Under the pieces are notes generated by a model. That model ran no database searches and was not told the DNA's origin. It saw nothing but the letters and a program-made list of their open reading frames with translations. From the NCBI GenBank assembly GCA_019113645.1, contig DXGZ01000048.1, forward strand, positions 1 through 64,000: DNA of 64,000 nucleotides, written 5' to 3'. The position numbers and the translations under genes are program-made. Positions 16,634 through 31,505 of the stretch are shown piece by piece (the stretch's first letter is position 1; each line of letters begins with the position of its first letter). Source of the DNA: Candidatus Mediterraneibacter vanvlietii. GTDB taxonomy: Bacteria > Bacillota > Clostridia > Lachnospirales > Lachnospiraceae.

Positions 16634-16746
16634 AATAATATAAGCGTAATTATTTTGGATGGGCGGTGTATCCATCATCTCAGGTACTCTTTGCAGAGTG
16701 CGTCGGGAACCATTTCCGACCTCAAAATAATCACGCTTAGTATTAT
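16634..16746. repeat. Inverted-repeat element with three internal hairpins (cloverleaf-like)
   Basis: Outer arms aataataTAAGCGTaATTATTTTG / CAAAATAATcACGCTTAgtattat enclosing hairpins GATGG..CCATC, ACTCT..AGAGT, TCGGGAA..TTTCCGA. Confidence 0.6.
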
Positions 16747-28827: not shown

Positions 28828-29769
28828 TTAGAGAACCAGCCATCCCGCGTCTACCGCACGTTCAAAATCCCAGTCATTTCTCCCCGGAGTATGCAGCTTA
28901 TAGCTCCAGAAGATCCAGCCGTCACACTTATCCCATGCTTTCAGCTCCATATCGGAAATCATCTGGTATATCCGTTTCTTTTCTTCATCATCAGCGTCTT
29001 TGATGTGCGCGCTCTTGTTTGCAATGCACCACTCGCCCACAATCACACTGTGAAACTGCTGCGCCCTCTCAAGAGCCTTCTCGAAATTCTCCTCGATCTC
29101 ACGCGCATAATCTGCCATTTCCCTGCTCTCCATATGAGATTCCAGTCCGCCCACATACATATGCGTGTCAATCACAACATTTTTATATTCCGGCCCTCTC
29201 ATGAAATCTTCCCATTCTTCAAGCCTGAATCCATCATGAAGCACAACAGCCACATCATCTCCACAGTGCCTGCGCACCACTTCATATCCTCTCAGATAAA
29301 AATCCTTGAGCAGCTCAGTCGGTACAGACGTGGAACCTTCCGCCCTCTTCGGGTCACGGACACGATATCTTTTCCTCGTAACCTGCCACATTGCCTCTGA
29401 AATGGGCTCATTCAGAAGTTCAATGCCATAGAGATTGCTTCTCCCCGCATACCGCTCTGCAAGCGCGTCCAGGACATCCAGCGTATACTCTATATTCTCC
29501 GGTTTATGATGCCATTTTACAACACCGGTCAGACCGCCATTGTCAAATCCATTCTGGCTGTCAGGAACCGTATGCAGATCAATCAGGATCTTCAGCCCGT
29601 ATTTTTCTCCCCAGTCAAACGCTTTGTCCAGATATTCGATACATCCCACATATGGTTTCTTTTCCCCGAAAATAAAATGCGGAACCGGAATACGCACCAG
29701 ATTCAGCCCCATAGTCTTCATGTGCTGGAAATCTCTCTCCTGGCAAAAAAGAGAGGACACAGACGTCAT
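28828..29769 (-). pseudogene. 5'-truncated GH5 family glucanase-like gene
   Basis: MGLNLVRIPVPHFIFGE, LKILIDLHTVPDSQNGFDNGG, YGIELLNEP, VIVGEWCIA present; expected N-terminal barrel start and signal region absent; no in-frame upstream extension in ORF track. Confidence 0.65.
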
Positions 29770-29821: not shown

Positions 29822-30134
29822 AATCTGAGTTTGCCAAGGCGGGAACTGTGCAGGCAAAAAACTTCTTCTACGGCTAATCGGTGGGCGCAGGGAAAGAAGA
29901 GACTGTAACGCGCTGCTGAGCCCGCTCCTTCAACTCTTCGAATGGATGTAACAAAAACGATAGATGCGCGTGCAAAGGCACTTCATCTATCGTTTTTTAA
30001 CATCCAGAACGAAGGATTTTCATACGCTCCTGCTCTGAATGCATCGCTTATACAGTCTCTTCTTTCCCTGCTTCATCAATTCGGCAGAAACAGTTCCAGT
30101 CAGACAGTTCCCGACTCGAAAGCTCAAGTTTAGG
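29822..30134 (+). repeat. Giant imperfect-palindrome element, family R2 copy A
   Basis: AATCTGAGTTTG end; 21-bp perfect basal stem GCAGGGAAAGAAGAGACTGTA (29887) / TACAGTCTCTTCTTTCCCTGC (30051); distal stem 29953-29966/29984-29997 with GTGC-AAAG-GCAC cap; 3' boundary approximate. Confidence 0.8.
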
Positions 30135-30145
30135 GACGTAAGAAA

Positions 30146-30330
30146 GAGATCTGAAGGATGTTGATTAAGATCTCAAATTTGAAACCTGGACATTGGCAGG
30201 TTGCCTCAAGAGCAAAAACGAGAAGTCAAGGGAAGGGTGGAGATTTCCGAAGGAAATACTACCCGACCTTGAGTCCTCGTTTTTGTGGGGTATCATGTAT
30301 GCGGGCGGCAGCATAATTTTGCTGCCGCCT
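30146..30330 (+). ncRNA. Candidate multi-hairpin structured RNA/DNA segment between the two R2 copies
   Basis: GAGATCT/AGATCTC; AACCTG/CAGGTT; nested hairpin AAAAACGAG-TCAAGG-GGGT-ATTTCC-GAA-GGAAAT-ACCC-CCTTGA-CTCGTTTTT; terminal hairpin GGCGGCAGCA-TAATTT-TGCTGCCGCC. Confidence 0.5.
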
Positions 30331-30441
30331 TGGTCACTAAGAAGACTTTCTGATTTTCCATTTGCTCCACTTTTCGTATTATTCTCCCTCAGTCATTCTT
30401 GTTCACTTTGCCAGTTACATTCCGTCTTCATCCAGCTTCTT

Positions 30442-30751
30442 AATCGCGAGTTTGTGAACCCGGGAACCGTCTGCCGATTGGAACTTTTTCTTCCGATTGG
30501 ATGTAGCCGGAAAGAAGAGACTGTATAAGCGATGCATTCAGAGCAGGAATCGGATGAAAAGCCTTCGCTCTGTATGTTAAATAACCCCAAATGAGAGTGC
30601 CTCTGCACGACCATTTGGGGTTATTGTTACATACATTCGAAGCTTTGAAGGAGTGGGCTCAGCATCGCGTTACAGTCTCTTCTTGCCGGCGCTTACCGAT
30701 TAGCCAAAAAGTTCTATAACAAAACGGTTCCCGGCTCCACAAACTCAGATT
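30442..30751 (-). repeat. Giant imperfect-palindrome element, family R2 copy B (inverted relative to copy A)
   Basis: Ends AATCTGAGTTTGTG and CACAAACTCGCGATT; same stem order as copy A, distal stem AATAACCCCAAATG/CATTTGGGGTTATT with GTGC-AGAG-GCAC cap; ends 1-2 bp from the sigE stop codon. Confidence 0.82.
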
Positions 30752-30752
30752 C

Positions 30753-31505
30753 TCACTCATAGCGCACCATTTCCCGCTTCAGCCGCTGCATGATTTTTTT
30801 CTCCAGCCTGGATATATAAGACTGGGAGATTCCCAGCATGTCTGCCACTTCTTTCTGGGTCTTTTCCCGTCCTTCCGGGTTATCCAGCCCAAACCGCATC
30901 TTTACAATCAGCTTTTCTCTGTTGGACAGTTTATTCAATGCCCGAATCAGCAGTTTCCGTTCCACTTCACTCTCCAGATCCTTGTAGATCGTATCCTCAT
31001 CCGTACCGAGAATATCTGACAGCAGAAGTTCATTCCCATCCCAGTCCACGTTCAGGGGTTCGTCAATCGATACTTCAAGCCTGGTTTTGCTGTTCCGGCG
31101 CAGATACATTAATATTTCATTTTCAATACATCTTGACGCATAGGTTGCCAGCTTGATCTTTTTCGCAGGATTAAATGTGTTGATGGCCTTGATCAGTCCG
31201 ATCGTGCCGATGGAAATCAGGTCTTCCACTCCCACGCCTGTATTATCGAATTTTTTCGCAATATAGACTACAAGCCTTAAATTATGCTCGATCAGCGTCT
31301 GTTTGGCTTCCTGATCCTTCTCTGTTCCAAGTCTCCGGATCATCTCGCTTTCTTTTTCCCCTTCCAGAGGCGGCGGAAGTACATCTGCGCCCCCTATGTA
31401 ATGGATTTCTTTTCCGCTCCCGAATATCAGACTCCTGATTTCAGGGATGACCCGCAGTTTCAGGCACTGCGGAACAACTGTCTTGACCATTTTTCTCTCC
31501 TCCAA
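30753..31505 (-). CDS. sigE: RNA polymerase sporulation sigma factor SigE
   Basis: [63 protein letters not shown]; lies directly downstream of spoIIGA. Confidence 0.95.

Follow-up and report, generated by a model that had tools for sequence, protein, structure and literature searches.

Modular non-coding palindromic composites at gene 3' ends in Mediterraneibacter

The window analysed here is a 64,000-nt stretch of Candidatus Mediterraneibacter vanvlietii (contig DXGZ01000048.1, positions 1 to 64,000, forward strand). Between a GH5 gene (28828-29769) and sigE it carries a complete composite element at 29822-30751, not assigned to either strand, which consists of a hairpin arm A, middle hairpins and an inverted arm B and was delimited by an inverted-repeat search and an end-to-end fold. 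The left end of the composite faces the start of GH5 and abuts the stop of no real gene; a single nucleotide separates the right end from the stop codon of sigE (30753-30755, minus strand), as read from the sequence and from a comparison of sigE loci. GH5 had been called truncated; a 5' truncation is present but mild, the Pfam match spanning positions 23-268 of the 272 in the profile. ORFs inside the composite gave no Pfam match. The contig itself starts within another composite (1-210, end repeat at 184-194 on the minus strand), and the assembly therefore seems to break in this repeat family.

The element is bounded by terminal inverted repeats, AATCTGAGTTTG on the left (29822-29833, plus strand) and CAAACTCAGATT on the right (30740-30751, minus strand), read from the sequence and from the copy count of ATCTGAGTTTG. 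Arm A (29822-30134, plus strand), for which homologues were found, is a giant palindrome with a perfect 21-bp stem formed by 29887-29907 and 30051-30071 (plus strand; 21/21 pairs, 100%). Its apical hairpin (29947-30002, plus strand) reads TGTAAC, a variable stem, the loop CGTGCAAAGGCACT, the returning stem and TAACA, and was recognised by a pattern search (chance expectation 0) and by covariation. Arm B (30442-30751, minus strand) has a stem with one mismatch, formed by 30506-30525 and 30671-30690 (plus strand; 19/20 pairs, 95%), and an apical hairpin at 30575-30631 (minus strand; pattern search). Inverted-repeat searches also placed between the arms a middle hairpin, CAAAAACGAG...CTCGTTTTTG (30213-30285, plus strand; region fold z -4.1), and a second, small one, GGCGGCAGCATAA/TTTTGCTGCCGCC (30304-30329, plus strand). 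Pairing of A with inverted B was found for 29891-29982/30596-30687 (92 nt, 85%), 30028-30067/30509-30548 (40 nt, 100%) and 29822-29867/30706-30751. Both arms fold far below shuffled sequences (z -8.8 for A, -12.4 for B), and the whole 930 nt folds end to end, with A paired with B, at -284 kcal/mol (z -25). The preliminary description had presented A and B as homologous inverted palindromes of ~310 bp that share a series of blocks and fold on themselves through the two stems, all of which was borne out, coordinates included. It had also placed them as two elements bracketing a separate core; the hairpins and the structured core are there, but the core, with the hairpin at 30213-30285, is part of one unit, the whole composite, because composites of other species (~690 bp in genome G004, ~750 bp in G053) have the same architecture and keep the order end, arm, middle hairpin, inverted arm, end.

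The element at 29822-30751 belongs to a family of modular, non-coding palindromic composites that ranges across the genus. The window's genome holds 16 blastn matches to it, and the end sequence ATCTGAGTTTG occurs there 37 times without a mismatch (reversed control, 0), so that the locus is not solitary, and further homologues were found across the genus. The apical-hairpin pattern was found in 82 stretches of GTDB contigs, all from Mediterraneibacter or from gut isolates and MAGs under other names (e.g. Lachnoclostridium sp. An169). R1, a covariance model built for the 105-nt apex along lines that the preliminary description had put forward, matched 44 of 58 genomes of the genus with 1-66 matches each, and gave one weak match among 397 genomes of the family outside the genus; the family is thus multicopy and essentially confined to Mediterraneibacter. 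In the complete genome G053, 66 R1 matches correspond to ~33 composites, nearly all (+,-) pairs in the order plus hairpin, middle hairpin, minus hairpin; 32 composites were measured, most of them 710-955 bp long, and 15 of similar length had a median identity of 92%, against 62% for their flanks, the latter being the baseline of gapped alignment. Composites of G004 and G053 have terminal inverted repeats other than those of the window element. The phages and viral contigs searched had no match to the element, and plasmids had three short ones (5-7% of the query, query positions 393-460) in the middle hairpin. Rfam gave no match at gathering score, and one at E 1 that fell far below its cut-off, so no Rfam family explains the element. 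In the literature, nothing was found on Mediterraneibacter palindromes or on stop-to-stop repeats.

The outer ends of the composites lie at stop codons. An outer end was scored as abutting when its position relative to the stop of an open frame (60 codons or longer) was between -16 and +8 nt; the frame scored at the left end of the window composite is not a recognised gene. By this measure 49 of 67 outer ends in G053 lay at stops (against 7% of positions drawn at random from those loci), as did 23 of 30 in the window's genome (null 8%). Stops were found at both ends in 17 of the 32 G053 composites, at one end in 12 and at neither in 3. TAA, TGA and TAG are all used, and the stops therefore belong to the genes. 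The stop-free ends include promoter flanks of Rpn-like genes and, at L205 of G053, an apparently interrupted native inverted repeat. In many cases both ends lie at stops, and the element occupies all of the space that separates two facing genes. One-sided abutment could also have arisen by selection alone, elements surviving just at gene ends.

The region downstream of sigE was compared between species. In G070 and G064 this region is about 30 bp long. G042 has just one perfect 45-bp palindrome, with ends of the same kind, before the facing gene, and G063 has a palindrome of ~75 bp; modules that are palindromic but of other kinds lie there in G060, G061 and G065. A composite is present in G000 and G004, and in G004 it reaches from the stop of sigE as far as that of the ABC gene facing it. 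The C-termini of sigE and of PRPP synthetase are the same with or without the element, so its arrival removed no coding sequence there; the native spacer is gone in many filled sites. Supply of the stop codon by the element at sites with the end at +6 was considered and rejected, the extra Ile at PRPP synthetase being native. A search for a strain-level empty site found none.

At many loci the gene that ends at an element has orthologues ending at elements in other species, in 11 genomes at one locus, and the sequence at the shared sites is species-specific. Between arms of the same type, identity is 79-89% in G000 and for the most part 87-95% in G004, whereas it is 69-72% between orthologous sigE elements, no higher than for elements at non-orthologous sites. 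This amounts to concerted evolution or to recurrent replacement at favoured sites. The preliminary description had noted neither the occupation of the same sites in other species by species-specific sequence, nor the ends at stop codons, nor the inclusion of the core in the unit. At a convergent acyltransferase/AGCS transporter pair, the cargo enclosed by inverted arms differs among four species, being RelBE-like and DUF2000 genes, DUF2000 and CPBP-like genes, or a CPBP-like gene alone (L056 4719-6079; L072 773-2788; L089 675-2517; L100 3083-4925). In G053, six Rpn-like nuclease genes lie beside composites (e.g. L183 1813-2916; L190 1920-3041; L266 449-1528); they are 92-95% identical and have the upstream repeat GTTTAAAGTTTGTATGAAATAAGTATAAAA in common. 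In G000, sigE and its usual partner ABC gene are on separate contigs, each ending at an element, and the two elements have the same terminal repeat and different arms. Recombination through the elements would explain the varied cargo, the Rpn-like genes beside composites and the split of sigE from ABC.

Candidate mobilisers were looked for, and neither a mobilising transposase nor a target-site duplication, a check of the flanks that the preliminary description had proposed, was found; inspected by eye, the flanks of the G053 composites showed no consistent duplication. We infer movement from copy number and patchy occupancy, since transposase, duplication and strain-level empty site were all missing from what was searched. 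RAYT was rejected on locus anatomy: there is no R1 element around the RAYT loci, and the only R1 match in the RAYT-locus search was L266, an IS200-type locus. The RAYT-like gene lies downstream of glycyl-tRNA synthetase in several species (L260 894-1679; L261 842-1651; L263 1166-1975) and has its own small REP, GGGACGTAGTRAAAT/ATTTYACTACGTCCC. Rpn (PF04754) was set aside because it was not found in G046, which has 31 element matches. An autonomous version between distant inverted arms was likewise rejected, the genes there being the RelBE-like, DUF2000 and CPBP-like cargo and no transposases. IS630-like genes are nested in the middle hairpin of only 2 of the 32 composites (DDE_3; L181 1912-3183 and L182 1884-3074); the two transposases are different and stand at the same point of the hairpin, next to non-coding sequence that both composites share, which looks like an exchange of the gene.

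These genes speak for a classical MITE, a TIR transposon moved in trans (for example by an IS630-type transposase) that survives mostly at gene 3' ends since it is harmful elsewhere. Matching ends, multiple copies, strong folding, patchy sites and versions with the same TIR that differ inside would all suit such a transposon, and MITE-like repeats of pneumococcus are over-represented between convergent genes (PMC3049150). We nevertheless regard this account as rather unlikely: the IS630-like genes are confined to the middle hairpin of two composites, consistent flanking duplications were not seen, and a single insertion event would not yield composites with both ends abutting stops (17/32) and the native spacer gone.

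On another view, which we assess as very unlikely, the elements are nothing more than elaborate bidirectional intrinsic terminators that were inherited at convergent junctions, where they diversified and became homogenised, and that never moved. In its favour, the perfect 45-bp palindrome is all that lies between sigE and its facing gene in G042, and terminators of low-GC Firmicutes near stop codons have A and T tracts on both sides (PMC1590033). However, a T-rich 3' arm is present in 29 of 116 distinct apical hairpins, only a quarter; copy number spans 0-66 between species; and many orthologous gene ends carry unrelated short terminators. A consensus terminator scan called none within 29822-30751.

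The arms vary in sequence and stay complementary. Among 125 distinct apices, 96.6% of cells were paired, and both sides had changed in 19 of 25 pairs, a level reached in 0 of 500 shuffles. Double-changed cells numbered 618, against 186 after shuffling, and the excess was lost when the partner was slid. The apex alignment leans towards pairing because it was fitted to the structure of the model; a free MAFFT alignment (A1), with double changes in 15 of 25 pairs, agrees, as does control (b) of the covariation test. The 3102 cells included 2978 Watson-Crick pairs, 68 A.C and 20 G.U (wobble 0.6%), and a single loop-stem pair accounted for 30 unpaired cells. On the strand of a folded RNA, G.U would be expected to outnumber A.C by far. 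Since wobble is near absent and G.U rarer than A.C, the arms seem to be kept complementary as DNA, and the apex sequences suggest that complementarity is maintained at that level; the excess of A.C over G.U could also mean that RNA from the opposite strand has a function, but wobble is rare whichever strand is read. Hence a structured RNA, with the arms as genes or 3' UTR elements for a folded RNA, is highly improbable, in spite of the covariation, of a conserved loop CGTNCANNGGNACT with a co-varying third pair and of a conserved unpaired AAC/CTA, because wobble is so rare, because many copies stand in inverted pairs, so that both strands would be read, and in view of the Rfam result.

We consider it probable that the family is a non-autonomous, modular, MITE- or BIME-like palindrome placed at gene 3' ends, kept symmetrical by template switching, kept alike by recombination and possibly serving as a two-way barrier. 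Some copies could act as two-way terminators, although few distinct apices have T tracts and no terminator was called in the window element. The preliminary description had offered a composite element, a non-autonomous mobile hairpin and a structured RNA; the first two fit best, mobility itself being deduced, and the third is disfavoured. The DNA would fold into hairpins or cruciforms, and the folded DNA would promote template switching within the palindrome, so that diverging arms stay complementary. In E. coli, template switching perfects quasipalindromes (PMC7202029). In the present family, the normally mismatched AAC/CTA has been made perfect in single copies, as TGTTAG/CTAACA (L003, L038) and TGTAAC/GTTACA (L066). 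Homologous recombination, including gene conversion, may let copies trade arms, inner modules and cargo genes, and the element may grow by nested modules. It would spread to new gene ends through replacement of the terminator region, or through insertion by some enzyme. At gene ends it would be tolerated, and may even be of use, as a barrier to transcription from both sides. Recombination alone, acting between gene ends that are unrelated, does not account for its first arrival. A bolder version, that this is a new kind of mobile DNA which precisely replaces the entire intergenic sequence from stop to stop between convergent genes, by hairpin-driven recombination and not by cut-and-paste, with cargo taken by the same route, appears unlikely.

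The palindrome favoured here can be compared with three known systems. REP, BIME and REPIN sequences with their RAYT are also modular intergenic palindromes, often in inverted pairs and with a preference for gene 3' ends and for convergent genes (PMC3733652), but the arms here, at about 310 nt, are about ten times longer than their 20-40 nt units, and the RAYT of the genus has an unrelated REP and no R1 element beside it; no short GTAG-tagged unit came up in these comparisons. Bacterial MITEs and the BOX, RUP and SPRITE repeats of S. pneumoniae are likewise non-coding, folded and modular, with matching ends and enrichment between convergent genes (PMC3049150); here, however, neither duplication nor parent transposase was found, the boundaries are stop codons, often on both sides, and the arms co-vary. 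Bidirectional Rho-independent terminators of low-GC Firmicutes share the position just after stops and between convergent genes (PMC1590033), and the minimal form in G042 looks like one, whereas the present elements reach 950 bp, have nested modules, form a multicopy sequence family and lack T tracts in most distinct apices. On these likenesses and differences the family was placed among interspersed palindromic repeats and in none of the named families tested; within that class, stop-to-stop boundaries are an unusual feature.

Interspersed palindromes are common, and their spread and placement at gene ends are poorly settled. In the present family, dozens of copies have precisely defined boundaries, orthologous sites can be compared in the filled and the empty state over some 50 species, and sizes grade from a palindrome of 45 bp up to composites of 950 bp. 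With such material, gene exchange at gene 3' ends and the concerted evolution of intergenic DNA can be tested directly in bacteria that are common in the gut. Assemblies of Mediterraneibacter genomes appear to break in these repeats.

Two minor observations were made. The window also contains an Rfam skipping-rope RNA (16650-16730, 74.8 bits). Another palindromic module family, GCAGCGGTACATAAG...GCGCAAAA, occurs alone or nested within the same kind of ends (L010 1770-1910; L014 1181-1290; sigE loci of G060 and G061).
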